A DNA stretch of 25,799 bases, taken from positions 1 through 25,799 of IMG/VR virus record IMGVR_UViG_3300007734_000519; one strand, written 5' to 3'. Below the pieces are notes generated by a model. That model was not told where the DNA came from and did not search any database. It worked only from the letters and a program-made list of their open reading frames with translations. Position 1 is the first letter of the stretch. Each line of letters begins with the position of its first letter. The stretch comes from a virus. Positions 59-17,613 of the stretch are shown in pieces. A program made the position numbers and the translations under genes.

Positions 59-370
59 TCAGTTTGATGTGATTGGTTTATTTTGGCGGCGTGAGTTGCA
101 AGATCGGTGGGCTGCCGCAAGAGGCGAGTTGGGGTCGGCTGGTATGAGATGGTCGGCTGTGAATGGGTCGGCTGGTTTCTTGCCCTCGCCGCATATCCAG
201 CAGGCTACGGCGTTGTCTCTGATCTGTTTGGCTCGCTTTCGATAATCGCCTGCGTAATGGGGTCTGTTCGGTTTGGGGTGTTGCTGATACCAGAGCGTTT
301 GGCATCTTGTGCAGCGTGTGGCGTTGCTTGTGAGGGTTCGGCAGTTGAGACAGGGGCGTTGTATTGGCAT
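59..370 (-). CDS. HNH endonuclease with N-terminal zinc ribbon
   Basis: This 103-aa protein carries an N-terminal four-cysteine cluster (C7, C10, C20, C23) and a C-terminal HNH nuclease core: CWIC at 57-60, the TADH motif with H74, N81, H88 and a final C91-N-S-R-R. HNH proteins of this size commonly sit beside the terminase genes of tailed phages, and some are needed for DNA packaging and terminase cleavage. That suggests the terminase lies just left of this window (inference). Its ATG overlaps the stop of the PLP-enzyme gene by one base (TGATG), so it is translationally coupled to the modification-like cassette upstream. The family call is firm; the packaging role is not shown by the sequence. 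Confidence 0.9.
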   Translation of the reverse strand: MPIQRPCLNCRTLTSNATRCTRCQTLWYQQHPKPNRPHYAGDYRKRAKQIRDNAVACWICGEGKKPADPFTADHLIPADPNSPLAAAHRSCNSRRQNKPITSN

Positions 371-1116
371 CAGGATTCCCAGCCAAGCACATTCCAGAAC
401 AGGCGGCTGCGTTGCGGTTGGGCTTGGATTGCTTGTTGCATTAGGGCGAACGCTTTAGATTCGTAGTGCTGGCAGATGGGGAATGGGGCTGCACATTTGA
501 GAGGTTTTGCGAACAGTAGTGGTTGCTCGATGATTTGGCAGTTATCAGGCAGGGTTTGTTTCGCCCAACGAGATTGCAGCCCGACTGCCACTGCTTTGAT
601 CTGAGAGTTCGGGAACGACACGGCGAGATTCTTAGCGAGCATTCCTGACCCTGCGGCGCACCATATCTCGTCAGGTTGCCCGATTTGTTGGCGTAATGTT
701 TCGAGCATTGATCTGAATGGGGCTACGGCTGATTGGGTATCGAATCCTAGTGGTAGGAACAGTGCGCCTGTTTGTTGTGCGTAATCTCTTGCTCGTTTCT
801 GCACGACATTCATATAGCCGTGCTGGACTAATTCGAGATGTGCGCCGTTGTCTTGCACTCGTTTCATTCTTGGGTGCAGTTCTTTTCGCCAAGCGTAGAA
901 GATTGTGATGCGTTTGCCTGTTTCTCTGCCTATGACTGACAGCCCTACTGGTGCGCCTCCAGCGAACGGTGCGCCGAACACTATGTGGTCTGCATCGCCT
1001 ATCACATAGGGCAGAAATCTTACTTTCGTGCCGCCGTCAAGCAGATCATCTCTGAGCGCAGAGTATCCGTTGTGGTGCGTTACGATGAACGGCGAGGTTT
1101 GATACTCGCTGGTCAT
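370..1116 (-). CDS. Compact fold-type-II PLP-dependent enzyme (ACC deaminase/D-cysteine desulfhydrase-like)
   Basis: A 248-aa protein is obtained from the ATG at 1116, which overlaps the preceding stop as ATGA; the open frame continues further upstream only inside the neighbour. Residues 28-34 (GGTKVRF) match the catalytic-lysine motif of ACC deaminase and related tryptophan-synthase-beta-fold enzymes, where the lysine forms the Schiff base (here K31). Residues 151-160 contain AGSGML, resembling the glycine-rich phosphate-binding loop of PLP enzymes. Cellular members are usually around 330 aa, so this is a shortened version, and the substrate cannot be predicted. It is the third gene of a coupled set with a methyltransferase fusion and a GNAT/dioxygenase fusion, which suggests that it makes or alters an amino-acid-like group used in hypermodification (inference). 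Confidence 0.7.
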   Translation of the reverse strand: MTSEYQTSPFIVTHHNGYSALRDDLLDGGTKVRFLPYVIGDADHIVFGAPFAGGAPVGLSVIGRETGKRITIFYAWRKELHPRMKRVQDNGAHLELVQHGYMNVVQKRARDYAQQTGALFLPLGFDTQSAVAPFRSMLETLRQQIGQPDEIWCAAGSGMLAKNLAVSFPNSQIKAVAVGLQSRWAKQTLPDNCQIIEQPLLFAKPLKCAAPFPICQHYESKAFALMQQAIQAQPQRSRLFWNVLGWES

Positions 1117-2294
1117 AGCAATCGAGCAGCCTTGCCGTAAATCCAATCTTGTAGTTCTTTGTTTACAACAGCGTCTATGACTAGGTGAATGCGATCTAGT
1201 GAACCGTTGCGGTTTGAGACTGCGTGAGGTTTTCTTGTATCGAGATACCAAAGGCTGCCTGTTTCCAGATGCTTGCAGAGTTGTGTGCCGTTTAGTTGCC
1301 AAGCCTGAAACAAGCATTCAGGGTTGGTTTGTATCGGGATATGGAGGCGAGCGATCTTGTCGATAGTTGCGCCTGCTTCTTTATCTGTTATGTCAGCGTG
1401 TCGAGATAAGCCGCCATCTGATGCTCTGACTCTCATAAATCTGATGCGTTGCGTTTCGCAGCCCAGCAATCCGATGAGTTTTTGAACAGATGGGAAAGCG
1501 GCGAACGCTGGAGTATCTCTAACGGAATTGTTCAACAATGATGCGTTGTCTTGTTTCCATTTTTTTGACATCTCGGCTGGCTTGATTATGAAATGTGGGT
1601 TATCGGTGAAACCTTTGAGGCTGATTGCACTCCAAGATTTGCGTATGTTGTATGAACTGTAATGATCTGCCCAGCCGCTATCGGTGCTGTTTGCTACATA
1701 GGTTTCTAGTTCTGTTTTGATTTGGGCGATGATTTCAGGCGATGCGAAGTTTGGTGAGAGTCGTTCCAATGTTGCGTGATCAGAGATTGCTAGTGGTTCC
1801 CCTATGCGTTGTGCAGAGTTTGTGCCTCGAAACAGTATTGTTTTGAGTTCTGATGATGCGGAAACTTTAGTGCCTAATTTTTGAAAGCCCAGCCGTTTTA
1901 ATTGATCGAGTTTTGGGAAATCCTCTGTATGAGTTTCGAGCCATATCGCAGGGCTGTTAAATGATTGCAGCCAAGCATCAAGTGATTTATCTGATATCGG
2001 TTCAGCGAATGTGAGATGTTTGATAACGAAATCGGATTGTTGCACGAACAGTTGCCCTGCGGCGAATGTCGATTTGATGCTGTTCCGTTTTGCGGTTTTG
2101 CCAACGATGAAACCAATGGTTTGCGTTTTGTCATCATTGAATAGTTCATAGCCTTCGCCTTGAACGATGGCTTGTGCAATTTCTGCTTCGTTTGGTATTC
2201 CAAATCTGCCGAACGAGAACGGTTCATATCGCTCGAACAGTTTGCTAATCGCAGCGAGCCGTTCAAGAGGTATGCCTTGCTGCCAATCATTCAT
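1113..2294 (-). CDS. GNAT-like acyltransferase fused to an aspartyl/asparaginyl beta-hydroxylase-type 2OG-Fe(II) dioxygenase
   Basis: This 393-aa protein has two parts. Residues about 15-157 resemble a GNAT domain, with strand-rich segments ending in the characteristic KRLGFQKLG pattern. Residues about 205-385 match the aspartyl/asparaginyl beta-hydroxylase family: iron ligands H289-A-D291, distal H347 in KPHAVSN, and R358 in RIHLVID, the usual 2-oxoglutarate-binding arginine. All expected dioxygenase residues are present, so the enzyme is probably active. The start overlaps the methyltransferase gene by eight bases and the stop overlaps the PLP gene as ATGA. The phage Mu Mom protein, which modifies adenine in DNA, is also GNAT-related; a DNA-modifying role here rests on that analogy and on neighbours. 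The dioxygenase call is strong, the GNAT call moderate. Confidence 0.75.
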   Translation of the reverse strand: MNDWQQGIPLERLAAISKLFERYEPFSFGRFGIPNEAEIAQAIVQGEGYELFNDDKTQTIGFIVGKTAKRNSIKSTFAAGQLFVQQSDFVIKHLTFAEPISDKSLDAWLQSFNSPAIWLETHTEDFPKLDQLKRLGFQKLGTKVSASSELKTILFRGTNSAQRIGEPLAISDHATLERLSPNFASPEIIAQIKTELETYVANSTDSGWADHYSSYNIRKSWSAISLKGFTDNPHFIIKPAEMSKKWKQDNASLLNNSVRDTPAFAAFPSVQKLIGLLGCETQRIRFMRVRASDGGLSRHADITDKEAGATIDKIARLHIPIQTNPECLFQAWQLNGTQLCKHLETGSLWYLDTRKPHAVSNRNGSLDRIHLVIDAVVNKELQDWIYGKAARLL

Positions 2295-3726
2295 TTGCGC
2301 TCAACTCCTCCAGCCATTGAGGTTCATTGTCGTAGCCCCACTCGCCTTCGCCCAATGTTTCTGTTGTTGCGAACGGGTCGCCTTTGGCGAAAACTAAGAT
2401 GTTTTGATGTATGCGAGCGATCTTGCGTGATGCGCCGAACATTCTGCCAATTCGCATAGCCCACGAACCGCTTTGTTGCACATAAATACATTCGTTGTAA
2501 TAACGCAAACCTGCGTTTTCAAATGCTTTGATTGTGTCGCCAACAAAGTTCCGATAGTTGCCTTGTTCGTCTCTGATTTCTGAAACAACCCAAACAGCAA
2601 ACGAGTTATCAGCTAGCAGATTCGCTGACCTTGCAATAATTTCGTTGTAAGAAACCAAGAATTGTTCGTATGTCGGGCAGTTTGACAGATCGTTTTCGTC
2701 ATCTGAGTATTGTTCTAGATCGAAATATGGTGGACACGAGAACATCAAGTTGATCGGTGTTTTGATGCTGCTTAAATCAACTGTTCTTGAATCGCCGTTT
2801 ATCCATTCGCACGAGCCTGCGCCTTGCCCTAGTTTTGTTTTTTGTTCGTTATTTGCTGCTACTTGTTCTGATCTAAGTTCAACCCCGACATAGTTCATTC
2901 CAAGATGGGCTGCAACGATGCCTCGCACTGAACCTCCAGCGAACGGGTCAAATATGTGTCCGTTATTGGGGCAATACCATCTGTAAGCGATTTCGCAGAT
3001 CACGGGGTCAAATACTGATGTGCCGTTGTATTGAGGCTTGTCAGAGTTGGGGTATTCATAGATTGCGCTGTTCGGCAAAGTCAAGTTTTTGTCTCTGCCT
3101 GCGTTATTTAAGATCGTGTCAGAAAACTTCAACAAGTTCTCGTTTCTTCCTATTTCTGATTCAATGCCTAGTTTGAGCCAATAATCTCGGCGTTGTTTCC
3201 ACCAACTTCTGCGACAATCCATAATCGAAAACGGCGCAATTCCGAAACGCTGAGCGATAGCACCTGTTACAACATTGGTAGCAAACTTGCTCTCAAGGTC
3301 TAAAGGCTGCTCGAATGCGTTGTCGTTGATTAACAAGTCGAGATCATCGCCATCGAACAGTGACCCAGATAAGCCGATGTCTGTTGATGCCAACTCTTTC
3401 AACAATCGCTCTAAACCATCGTTGTTGTATGACGAAAGATCGGTGCTGCGGTTATCTGCGAGCAGGATTCGCAAAGCCTCGTCATCGTCTTTGGTTTCGA
3501 TAAAGCCTGCGTTGATCTGCTGCCAGCCTAAAGACTTTGCTGCTTTCCAAGTGTGGTTGCCTGCGAGGATACGGTTTGTGCGTTTATCTACCACGATAGG
3601 GCGATACTGACCGTGTGTTTTCAACGATTCACTTATTGCACCGATGTCGCCTTGACGAACATTCTTTGGGTGTGTTTCAACCGAATCTATATCTACGATC
3701 GTGTATTCAATTTTGCGTTGTTCCAT
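2287..3726 (-). CDS. ParB N-terminal domain fused to a DNA methyltransferase
   Basis: A 479-aa fusion. Residues about 6-95 form a ParB/Srx-type N-terminal domain, with the GNHTW box at 56-60 in place of the usual GxHR-type motif. The remainder is a Rossmann-type N4/N6 nucleic-acid methyltransferase: DPFAGGS at 260-266 (SAM-binding motif I) and SCPPYFD at 330-336 (motif IV). The usual first residue of the D/S/N-PPY catalytic motif is a cysteine here. The W-rich linker around 174-184 is typical of phage ParB-methylase proteins. Such enzymes probably protect phage DNA from host restriction. The gene starts a tightly coupled cassette (about 3726 to 59). The start has a weak AAGGAT site five bases upstream. 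Confidence 0.88.
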   Translation of the reverse strand: MEQRKIEYTIVDIDSVETHPKNVRQGDIGAISESLKTHGQYRPIVVDKRTNRILAGNHTWKAAKSLGWQQINAGFIETKDDDEALRILLADNRSTDLSSYNNDGLERLLKELASTDIGLSGSLFDGDDLDLLINDNAFEQPLDLESKFATNVVTGAIAQRFGIAPFSIMDCRRSWWKQRRDYWLKLGIESEIGRNENLLKFSDTILNNAGRDKNLTLPNSAIYEYPNSDKPQYNGTSVFDPVICEIAYRWYCPNNGHIFDPFAGGSVRGIVAAHLGMNYVGVELRSEQVAANNEQKTKLGQGAGSCEWINGDSRTVDLSSIKTPINLMFSCPPYFDLEQYSDDENDLSNCPTYEQFLVSYNEIIARSANLLADNSFAVWVVSEIRDEQGNYRNFVGDTIKAFENAGLRYYNECIYVQQSGSWAMRIGRMFGASRKIARIHQNILVFAKGDPFATTETLGEGEWGYDNEPQWLEELSANE

Positions 3727-8877: not shown

Positions 8878-8950
8878 CTGGTTTCTCACCACAAACAGGT
8901 TTCACAGGCAGCAGCCGATTCGGAATGCAAGCACATAGTTTTGCTTTCAT
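8861..8950 (-). CDS. 29-aa cysteine-containing micro-ORF
   Basis: ATG at 8948-8950 overlaps the WhiB stop as ATGA, and the frame ends at 8861 inside the start of the next gene. The product has CAC near its start, a third Cys at residue 20 and an acidic DDDDE tail. The coupling suggests translation; the product may only serve to carry ribosomes to the next gene. It may also be a remnant of a small zinc-finger gene. Confidence 0.35.
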   Translation of the reverse strand: MKAKLCACIPNRLLPVKPVCGEKPDDDDE

Positions 8951-9198
8951 AATTGCGCTCGCTGTTCCTTTCTAATCTCTCGCCTCTGCTCAGGTGTAAG
9001 CCCTCCAAACATACCCCATTTATCGTCAGAGTCCTCGAGTCGCAGAACCAGAGCCAAACACTGCTCTTTGACAGTGCAATCGGCGCAGATATCTCGTGCC
9101 ATCTGCCAGCGATTATCGTGCGGCGAATATGCAGGAAAGAAAACAACAGTCGGCTTGCCTTTGCATAAAGCGTCATCAGTCCAATGATCACGAATCAC
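8947..9198 (-). CDS. WhiB-family transcriptional regulator
   Basis: An 83-aa WhiB-like protein. The four iron-sulfur cluster cysteines are present: C12, then C38-x2-C41-x5-C47, followed by the family turn GMFGG (62-66, usually G-[VI]-W-G-G) and a basic C-terminal helix (TPEQRREIRKEQR) of the type that contacts DNA. WhiB proteins bind the main sigma factor and adjust its promoter choice; phage versions, such as that of mycobacteriophage TM4, can act against the host WhiB. The family is restricted to Actinobacteria and their phages, so this gene fixes the likely host phylum. It overlaps both neighbours as ATGA and lies between recombination and nuclease genes. The W-to-F change in the turn is a minor oddity. 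Confidence 0.93.
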   Translation of the reverse strand: MIRDHWTDDALCKGKPTVVFFPAYSPHDNRWQMARDICADCTVKEQCLALVLRLEDSDDKWGMFGGLTPEQRREIRKEQRAQL

Positions 9199-15744: not shown

Positions 15745-16689
15745 CTATGCTGCCCACGACACATTGCCTGTGCCTGCGGTAATCGTTGCTACTGTATAAC
15801 TTCCACTTATTGCTGTGCTTCCTGTGAGACCAGCACCGATTGTTATTGTAAAATTGGTTGGATAACGCAAGATGACGACACCGCTACCACCGTTACCACC
15901 ATTTGCTGTGCCACCAATTTCTGTCGCACCACCACCACCGCCACCTGTATTTGCTGTGCCAGGATTGCCATTATTGTTGCCACCTAATGCGCCTGCTGCA
16001 CCGCCACCACCCGAACCAGGCGCACCCAAACTTCCACCTACACCTGCGCCGCTACCTTGACCGCCAGCACCGCCACCACCGTAAGTAATACTTGAACCTG
16101 TTATAGAAACTGCAACACCATTACCGCCAGCACCCGAAATAGTGCTTTGGGCATTTCCACCAACAGCCCCAGCACCGCCACCACCGCCACCACTGAAACG
16201 ACTGAAACCGCTAGCAGAACCATTACCGCCAGCAAAACCTTGATTGGCTGTACCTGCACCGCCAGTTCGGTTGTTATATGAACCGCCACCACCCGAACCG
16301 CCACTAACGCCATTTTGACCTTGATTGTAAGCACCACGACCGCCGCCAGTAGAAGTGATAGTAGAAAATGTGCTGTCGCCACCGTTTGAACCATTGTCGG
16401 TTTGAGATGTTCTGCCTGTGCCACCTGCACCGATTGTCACCGTGTAATTCGTATTTGCTGTAAGTGTCAATGCGGTTTCTAAACTGCCACCACCGCCCGT
16501 CGCTGTTACGGTGCTACGCAAACCACCAGCACCACCACCTGGACCGCCAACTGTGTTGCCATCGCCGCCGCCACCACCACCACCAGCAACAACAAGATAA
16601 TCGACAGTCAATAATGTTTCATCACCTGTCGGCATCCAAGCCGAAGTGTAAGTTGAAACCCGTGTGCGTGGAACAAAAGGTCTAGACAT
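15745..16689 (-). CDS. Glycine-rich tail adhesin-like protein, copy B
   Basis: A 314-aa protein that is a paralogue of its upstream neighbour. N-terminal about 40 residues (VSTYTSAWMPTGDETLLTVD then YLVVAGG) and C-terminal about 45 residues (GGSGVVILRYP, TITIGAGLTGSTA, TAGTGNVSW) are nearly the same in both copies, while the glycine-run middle differs. Glycine-rich proteins of this kind can fold into polyglycine-II helix bundles, as in the phage S16 adhesin gp38, whose variable loops bind the receptor. The start lies directly after the neighbour's stop (TAGATG), so the two are made together. Receptor binding is inferred. Confidence 0.75.
   Translation of the reverse strand: MSRPFVPRTRVSTYTSAWMPTGDETLLTVDYLVVAGGGGGGGDGNTVGGPGGGAGGLRSTVTATGGGGSLETALTLTANTNYTVTIGAGGTGRTSQTDNGSNGGDSTFSTITSTGGGRGAYNQGQNGVSGGSGGGGSYNNRTGGAGTANQGFAGGNGSASGFSRFSGGGGGGAGAVGGNAQSTISGAGGNGVAVSITGSSITYGGGGAGGQGSGAGVGGSLGAPGSGGGGAAGALGGNNNGNPGTANTGGGGGGATEIGGTANGGNGGSGVVILRYPTNFTITIGAGLTGSTAISGSYTVATITAGTGNVSWAA
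16577..16641 (-). repeat. 65-bp exact direct repeat, copy B
   Basis: Identical to 17507-17571, exactly 930 bases away. It encodes the shared N-terminal segment of the glycine-rich pair. Exact identity at DNA level points to recent duplication or gene conversion. Confidence 0.9.
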
Positions 16690-17613
16690 CTAAGCCCAAC
16701 TCACATTCCCTGTGCCAGCAGTAATCGTTGTTATTTTGTTTGAGCCACTTGTCGCTGTTGAACCTGTTAAACCTGCACCGATAGTAATTGTGTAACTATT
16801 TGGATAAGACAATATGACTACACCGCTACCGCCTGCGCCTGCATTACCAACGCCTGACTCATTTCTTGCACCGCCACCGCCACCACCCGTGTTTGCTGTG
16901 CCAGCCGTTGCGTTTGCTTGCCGAGTAGTGCCAGCACCGCCACCGCCAGCACCGCCAGCACCGCCAGCACCGCCAGCCGCTTCACCGCAACCGCCACCGC
17001 CACCAGCATAAGTAACGCTAACTCCAGTTATAGATGATGATGAACCTGCGCCACCTGCACCACCTTGACCAGCACCGCCACCTAAATTAACACCCGTCGC
17101 ACCAACAACCGACGCACCACCACCACCGCCACCAGTATTAGTAGCGAGACTAAATGTGTCACCTGCACCGCCATTATTGCCTTGACTTGGTGAAGTGCTT
17201 GGCGTGTTACCCGACCCACCCGTGAACGGCGAATTTTGTGCGTTACCACCACCACCCGACCCACCATTAGAACCAGCGACACCGCTCAAACTTGAACCGC
17301 CACCACCGCCACCAGCACTCGTCATGGTTGTTAGACCGCTGCCACTAATTTCGCTACTGCTACCGCTTGAACCGTTATTATTGCGTGTTGTTGCTGCCGC
17401 ACCACCACCACCGACCGTAATTGTGTAATTTGTAGAAATAGTTAAAGTTGATGTTGCTGTGCGAAAACCACCCGCACCGCCACCGCCACCAAATAACCCA
17501 CCGCCGCCACCACCAGCAACAACAAGATAATCGACAGTCAATAATGTTTCATCACCTGTCGGCATCCAAGCAGAAATATATGTGCTAACCCGAGAACGGT
17601 TATCAAACCGCAT
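16690..17613 (-). CDS. Glycine-rich tail adhesin-like protein, copy A
   Basis: A 307-aa protein with the same plan as copy B: short N-terminal module (VSTYISAWMPTGDETLLTVD), glycine-rich repetitive middle (runs of GGGGG separated by aromatic or branched residues), and a C-terminal module ending TAGTGNVSWA. Its middle carries different loop sequences, for example between 100 and 140, suggesting diversification of binding. It is preceded by a small structural gene with three bases between. No reverse transcriptase or diversity-generating template was seen. Confidence 0.75.
   Translation of the reverse strand: MRFDNRSRVSTYISAWMPTGDETLLTVDYLVVAGGGGGGLFGGGGGAGGFRTATSTLTISTNYTITVGGGGAAATTRNNNGSSGSSSEISGSGLTTMTSAGGGGGGSSLSGVAGSNGGSGGGGNAQNSPFTGGSGNTPSTSPSQGNNGGAGDTFSLATNTGGGGGGASVVGATGVNLGGGAGQGGAGGAGSSSSITGVSVTYAGGGGGCGEAAGGAGGAGGAGGGGAGTTRQANATAGTANTGGGGGGARNESGVGNAGAGGSGVVILSYPNSYTITIGAGLTGSTATSGSNKITTITAGTGNVSWA
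17507..17571 (-). repeat. 65-bp exact direct repeat, copy A
   Basis: Identical to 16577-16641. It lies in the 5' part of the upstream glycine-rich gene and encodes the shared LLTVDYLVVAGG segment. Confidence 0.9.

Follow-up and report, generated by a model that had tools for sequence, protein, structure and literature searches.

The 25,799-bp viral record IMGVR_UViG_3300007734_000519 of IMG/VR, analysed over its full length and referred to here as the window, carries at its left end three minus-strand genes that overlap one another by 4-8 bp: gene A (2287-3726; 479 aa), gene B (1113-2294; 393 aa) and gene C (370-1116; 248 aa). This is the arrangement described in an earlier, sequence-only reading of the window, which took the trio for one multi-step nucleic-acid hypermodification pathway made up of a ParB-N/methyltransferase fusion, a GNAT/2-oxoglutarate (2OG) dioxygenase fusion and a compact pyridoxal phosphate (PLP) enzyme, each with recognisable active-site motifs. 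An HNH gene (59-370) lies downstream of gene C and overlaps its end, and in the related loci L011-L014 the cassette leads directly into the terminase genes. Comparison with relatives L001-L003 gave a dN/dS of about 0.06-0.12 for each of A, B and C, which indicates strong purifying selection, so that they are conserved coding genes rather than chance open reading frames (ORFs).

Gene A encodes a ParB_N domain (aa 13-92, 3451-3690, minus strand; Pfam 6.7e-7, with a profile match to ParB/Noc structures) followed by a class-I S-adenosylmethionine (SAM, or AdoMet) transferase (N6_N4_Mtase, 1.9e-10), both above the Pfam cut-off, and the protein matches phrog_498 in PHROGs at 1.3e-100. The catalytic part is confidently modelled by AlphaFold2 (AF2) and shows the SAM-binding motif I and Rossmann fold of the DNA N4/N6 amino-methyltransferases, with motif I (DPFAGGSVRG, aa 260-269, 2920-2949, minus strand; ninth residue Arg268) ahead of motif IV in the sequence; an alignment of 17 relatives holds at least 30 invariant columns. 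The fusion is thus as first described, except that motif IV is not the usual (D/N/S)PP(Y/F/W): it reads CPPY (aa 331-334, 2725-2736, minus strand) in every relative aligned, in sets of 17 and 48. Nor does CPPY correspond to the SPPC motif of the C5-methyltransferase-type carboxymethyltransferase CmoX (PMC12783734). We considered CPPY as a sign of linkage to the PLP enzyme and discarded the idea, the motif being invariant with and without that partner. Aminopropyltransferases were absent among the fold matches listed for gene A, which is no evidence against such a function.

Gene B (minus strand) joins a GNAT-fold domain (about aa 1-165, 1800-2294) to an Fe(II)/2OG amino-acid hydroxylase domain (aa 191-375, 1170-1724), and its AF2 model has a pLDDT of 94.1. 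The dioxygenase part matches Asp_Arg_Hydrox (PF05118) above cut-off (4.3e-8), and the metal ligands H299, D301 and H357 of its HxD...H motif, together with the 2OG-binding R368, are invariant in 41 relatives. Its nearest folds are the L-proline cis-4-hydroxylase 4p7w (Foldseek 3.9e-11; PDB profile match 5.4e-10) and a nucleoside-antibiotic beta-hydroxylase, placing it nearest to the hydroxylases of free amino acids. A Pfam search with the N-terminus gave no match, and Foldseek paired this part with the Ard1 N-acetyltransferase 2x7b (E 1e-6, TMt 0.56). Since the canonical acetyl-CoA loop motif is not conserved, the GNAT half of the described fusion stands as a fold and not as an acetyltransferase signature; the acyl transfer that had been proposed for it and the parallel with Mom of phage Mu are unproven. 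NCBIfam and PADLOC gave no specific match for gene B and PHROGs gave nothing, and the gene is nearly absent from cells, with 2 loci (both on contigs of metagenome-assembled genomes) in 84,980 cellular genomes; a cellular origin was not found.

Gene C encodes a fold-type-II PLP enzyme whose true start is the ATG at 1116, within an ATGA overlap with gene B; the longer ORF, of 315 aa, is an in-frame extension into gene B. Its PALP match (3.8e-7) falls slightly below the Pfam cut-off (30.2 vs 35 bits), which relatives exceed, and it matches phrog_7093 at 4.6e-31, a family that PHROGs names 'threonine dehydratase'; NCBIfam and PADLOC gave no specific match. The Schiff-base lysine K31 (1024-1026, minus strand) and the GSG at 156-158 of the glycine-rich phosphate loop are invariant in 17 relatives, and the GGTK motif around K31 aligns with GGNK of the 1-aminocyclopropane-1-carboxylate (ACC) deaminase 1j0a, ACC deaminase being the best solved relative. 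The compact PLP enzyme of the sequence-only reading is thereby borne out, as is its statement that all three proteins carry recognisable active-site motifs. Gene C is homologous over its full length to gp52, the PLP enzyme of Pseudomonas phage M6 (hhalign E 2.6e-15, 221 columns), including a C-terminal PFP..YD.KAW..FWN block.

The three families travel together. Of 80 IMG/VR loci retrieved with gene B as query, 45 contained both the A and C families and 77 at least one of them; among 80 picked by gene C, a member of the A family was present in 75, A or B in 79, and all three in 33. The sole PLP locus without a partner (L280) begins 3 bases from a contig end. The Erythrobacter phages R6L and ZS04 have the PLP domain embedded in the A protein itself, between the equivalents of residues 295 and 307 of P0003 and hence between motifs I and IV, and in Pseudanabaena Pam4 it occupies the same stretch of A; single-ORF fusions join A to B (L061 and L218) and B to A (L240 and L242). 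Gene order differs among loci (B-A, B-C-A, A-C-B), which argues that the link is functional rather than the mere common descent of one block. Scattered genes in relatives would have refuted the first proposal; the families instead stay together, and on this genomic evidence they are a conserved, functionally coherent set that is widespread in phages. B, however, is an optional addition to the A+C pair and not an obligate member: A and C occur with no B nearby in 42 of the 80 PLP loci. In several contigs B accompanies A without C.

Other transferases share these partners. A distant enzyme family with motif I DPSAGWGGR and motif IV TSPPYF, in which an arginine occupies the motif-I position of Arg268, is found with gene B in L223, L226, L238, L243-L249, L252 and L257, and most of these contigs also carry gene C; we therefore dropped the notion that the cassette is restricted to CPPY enzymes. 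At L260 (5114-7260) a gene B homolog lies directly downstream of a gene that on visual inspection resembles those for ThyX-type thymidylate synthases, with a GYGGR/TSPPYF transferase close by, an arrangement that possibly represents yet another base route.

What the set acts on is suggested by the company that relatives of B and C keep elsewhere. M6 gp52 is encoded between an amino acid:DNA transferase (ADDT; 1.4e-46) and a radical SAM protein, in a cluster also near a 5-hydroxymethyldeoxyuridine (5-hmdU) kinase and a thymidylate-synthase-like gene, and M6 DNA carries 5-(2-aminoethyl)-deoxyuridine (5-NedU) (PMC6449724, PMC11946847). In phage Montesquieu, whose genome has a 5-hmdU kinase, a PLP relative lies directly downstream of an annotated aGPT-PPlase2. 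Gene B has a single cultured homolog that covers most of its length, gp4 of mycobacteriophage LilMcDreamy; genes for an ADDT protein (2.7e-12) and a weak Tet_JBP-like protein (0.0022) come before it, and the terminase follows. By homology and gene neighbourhood, B and C are thus connected with DNA-borne amino acids along three independent lines.

Several annotations in these genomes differ from what the sequences show by profile search. LilMcDreamy gp3 (gp2-gp3 at L019:855-2665), annotated as hypothetical, is an amino acid:DNA transferase (PF18724), and gp2, annotated as a queuine tRNA-ribosyltransferase, scores weakly as Tet_JBP, below the Pfam cut-off; the latter score led us to reject the 7-deazaguanine modification that the annotation had raised. 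Mycobacterium phage AlanGrant gp2 (L020:1406-2275), annotated 'nucleoside deaminase', is a PALP-type PLP enzyme adjoining a ParB/CPPY transferase. A SAM lyase-like role, in which SAM depletion would serve as anti-restriction, was set aside on the homology to M6.

If gene C acts on an amino acid already bound to DNA, something must put that amino acid there. As the window is a fragment, we searched relatives, and neither ADDT (PF18724) nor the 5-hmdU kinase (PF18723) was present in the four complete cultured genomes that carry A and C (AlanGrant, Microcystis phage Mae-JY30, ZS04 and Pam4), while the same search recovered both in M6, ADDT also in LilMcDreamy and the kinase also in Montesquieu. 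On that premise gene A has to install the amino acid, and the donor would be SAM itself, whose 3-amino-3-carboxypropyl (acp) arm is an amino acid.

A second line of evidence comes from a sister clade of gene A. We compared 208 distinct catalytic domains, of which 143 are GG-type in motif I and 65 GD-type (FAGD[ST]xFG; loci L026, L028 and L112-L191, with Croceibacter phage P2559S and Pseudomonas phage ZRG1 in the clade). The ninth residue of motif I is arginine in 143/143 of the former and phenylalanine in 65/65 of the latter. A gene for AdoMet decarboxylase (PF02675, 2e-19 and 1.6e-23) follows A in 61 of the 65 Phe-type cases, usually overlapping the preceding transferase gene, vs none of the 143 Arg-type cases; conversely, C or B is nearby in 89/143 Arg-type and 0/65 Phe-type cases, although 89/143 is an overestimate, the Arg-type sample having been drawn partly with B and C queries (in the set drawn with A only, C accompanies 22 of about 80). 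Complementation has shown that the decarboxylase of P2559S, whose gene adjoins one for a Phe-type transferase, is genuine and active on AdoMet (PMC9992855). A search of 8 phage records from the clade turned up no spermidine synthase. The most evident role for decarboxylated SAM here is aminopropyl transfer, and the gene pairing suggests that DNA is what becomes aminopropylated. Decarboxylated SAM has no carboxylate, so that the loss of a carboxylate-binding arginine would fit, and the absence of B from the decarboxylase-linked clade is as expected if its dioxygenase needs a carboxylate. Gene A of the window lies outside this clade, with motif I FAGGSVRG and B, C and the HNH gene as neighbours.

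Taken with the co-occurrence, the fusions, the homology of C to the M6 enzyme and the placing of a B homolog beside ADDT, these findings give good support to the pathway proposed in the sequence-only reading, with DNA as its target: we put the probability that the trio is a phage DNA hypermodification cassette at roughly 0.85. The cassette is placed just ahead of the packaging genes. We propose that it acts after replication and that gene A is a DNA acp transferase and gene C a decarboxylase of the DNA-linked amino acid. Gene A, brought to DNA by its ParB-type domain, would use SAM as an amino-acid-arm donor rather than a methyl donor and attach the acp arm to a base, probably at an exocyclic or ring nitrogen. 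The dioxygenase of gene B would then hydroxylate the DNA-bound acp, while the GNAT-fold domain, which is divergent, may serve to bind the amino group or to acylate it. Finally, gene C would decarboxylate the amino acid to leave a (hydroxy)aminopropyl group; decarboxylation is the step we assign to it on the strength of the M6 homology and the mutual exclusion with AdoMet decarboxylase. In the sister clade, SAM would be decarboxylated first by the phage AdoMet decarboxylase and the aminopropyl arm then transferred directly, giving the same end group. The modification may serve to protect phage DNA from restriction and hide it from bacterial defences. We hold the acp-based chemistry itself as somewhat more likely than not. 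The generalisation that a large family of phage ParB-linked 'methyltransferases' are DNA aminocarboxypropyl or aminopropyl transferases, with two convergent routes to aminopropylated bases (a PLP enzyme on DNA or AdoMet decarboxylase on SAM) and hydroxylation added by the window cassette, is about as likely to fail as to hold.

Several observations weigh against this scheme. The best folds for the AF2 model of gene A are the tRNA N2-methylguanosine (m2G) enzymes TrmN, Trm11 and Trm14 (VIA-align Z 17.3 to TrmN/Trm11), its nearest folds thus being m2G6/m2G10 methyltransferases. Lone A-family genes without partners, 54 of the 143 Arg-type, could be plain methyltransferases. The position of Arg268 at the SAM carboxylate is predicted from its place in motif I. 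The GD clade arose once (support 99, one change on the tree), so the correlation between Arg or Phe and the decarboxylase amounts to one independent observation; with the sequences related in this way, we do not take Fisher p-values as independent evidence. For gene B, only 6 of 41 relatives show the acetyl-CoA motif [RQ]xxGx[GA], which forms no conserved column. Decarboxylation is not a classical activity of fold-type-II PLP enzymes. Amino acids appended to phage DNA reportedly undergo 'sculpting' by a set of enzymes, PLP-dependent decarboxylases among them, and the M6 family is likewise reported to have this activity.

Among other explanations, the one that survives best, itself unlikely, keeps gene A as a DNA transferase and has gene C remove ammonia from the DNA-bound amino acid, or racemise it, instead of decarboxylating it. 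The best PDB profile matches of C, which are ACC deaminase, cysteine synthase and threonine dehydratase, would suit such a role, but the homologous PLP enzyme of M6 comes from a phage whose DNA holds the decarboxylated product 5-NedU (PMC6449724), and C and AdoMet decarboxylase are mutually exclusive. Ranked below it, and quite unlikely, is a scheme in which A methylates the base, the dioxygenase of B hydroxylates that methyl group in the manner of TET, and C couples an amino acid to it. TET/JBP and ADDT chemistry does proceed by methyl hydroxylation and then amino-acid coupling in other phages, fold-type-II PLP enzymes are capable of beta-replacement, and B does contain a 2OG dioxygenase. That dioxygenase resembles amino-acid hydroxylases, however, and not TET/JBP, most A+C pairs have to manage with no B nearby, and the decarboxylase clade would be left unexplained.

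We also consider it unlikely, and rank it third, that gene A encodes a DNA N-methyltransferase of the ordinary kind, with B and C independent auxiliary metabolic genes that share the slot ahead of the terminase by chance. The Pfam similarity of A to N6_N4_Mtase, the many A relatives that stand alone before the terminase and the RNA methyltransferases among the nearest folds all speak for such an enzyme. Yet C adjoins A in 75 of 80 loci, three cultured phages have it embedded in A, other loci carry B and A as one fusion, and B is nearly absent from cellular genomes, with 2 loci; moreover, C hardly ever occurs without A, even though at least 7-18 changes of the PLP label are counted on the A tree. 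Simple methylation by gene A in this group is judged unlikely. Modification of tRNA or rRNA, in which acp groups are known and to which the m2G6/m2G10 folds would point, is improbable in view of the ParB-type DNA-binding domain of A, the location beside the terminase across phages and the recurrence of B and C partners in DNA hypermodification cassettes.

The cassette resembles several known systems in part. As in the thymidine hypermodification of M6 and Salmonella phage ViI, an amino acid would be put on DNA and then tailored, with a homologous PLP enzyme in M6 and the M6 genes likewise near the terminase small subunit; M6, however, uses 5-hmdU, a 5-hmdU kinase and ADDT, whereas the A+C phages have the ParB/SAM-transferase and neither of those two enzymes. 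In manner of working, the window cassette would match the second half of the thymidine pathway; with ADDT and the kinase absent from the four complete relatives searched, it is not a member of that system. LilMcDreamy shares a gene B homolog, a ParB protein and the same place before the terminase, but its base is apparently activated by TET/JBP and ADDT, and it has no CPPY transferase or PLP gene there. TYW2-type acp transferases and spermidine synthase are Rossmann-fold enzymes for which SAM or decarboxylated SAM is the donor of an acp or aminopropyl group; the comparison is one of working principle, as they act on tRNA or polyamines, have no ParB domain, and no sequence relation to gene A was found. 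Mom of phage Mu is a GNAT-fold protein implicated in DNA base modification, and its likeness to gene B is at the level of fold: the GNAT fold of the window comes joined to a 2OG hydroxylase, in the company of a system that would install amino acids. The CmoA/CmoX/CmoY system of 5-carboxymethylcytosine also employs a SAM-derived group as a handle, but by way of a C5-cytosine methyltransferase with SPPC, carboxy-SAM and ATP-dependent glycine ligation, with no PLP enzyme or amino-acid hydroxylase (PMC12783734). Literature searches yielded no account of an A+B+C system, in agreement with the sequence-only reading, nor of acp or aminopropyl transfer to DNA, though key hypermodification papers may contain an earlier mention.

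Should the acp/aminopropyl chemistry be confirmed, the cassette would come close to being categorically new. Direct transfer of the SAM arm would be a novel route for installing amino acids on DNA; a phage gene family now labelled DNA adenine methyltransferase, N6/N4 methyltransferase or ParB protein would be reassigned; and the set of phages that have AdoMet decarboxylase with no spermidine synthase would be explained. Specific new nucleosides would then be predicted in cultured phages, and cationic side chains of this kind would presumably prevent restriction enzymes from acting and make the DNA easier to package.

The surroundings of gene A vary among relatives. The closest, L001, has an extra N4/N6-type methyltransferase (L001:2-1201) just upstream of gene A, where the window has none. 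In L011 (5603-6226), L013 (7120-7746) and L027 (5141-5782), a second SAM-binding protein of 207-213 aa takes the place of the PLP gene, with the motifs SLPDMEE and DPFCGQGS in L011 and L013, and a homolog of it comes after the gene A relative in halovirus HCTV-2.

Nearly all genes of the window lie on the minus strand. Elsewhere in it, a YqaJ exonuclease and a WhiB-family regulator (8947-9198; PF02467, 1.1e-14) are encoded in the middle, and head and tail genes at the right end. The WhiB gene, together with matches to mycobacteriophage proteins, suggests an actinobacterial host. Two neighbouring glycine-rich proteins at 15745-17613 share a near-identical N-terminal block (VSTYxSAWMPTGDETLLTVDYLVVAGGGGGG) and are likely duplicated tail proteins.

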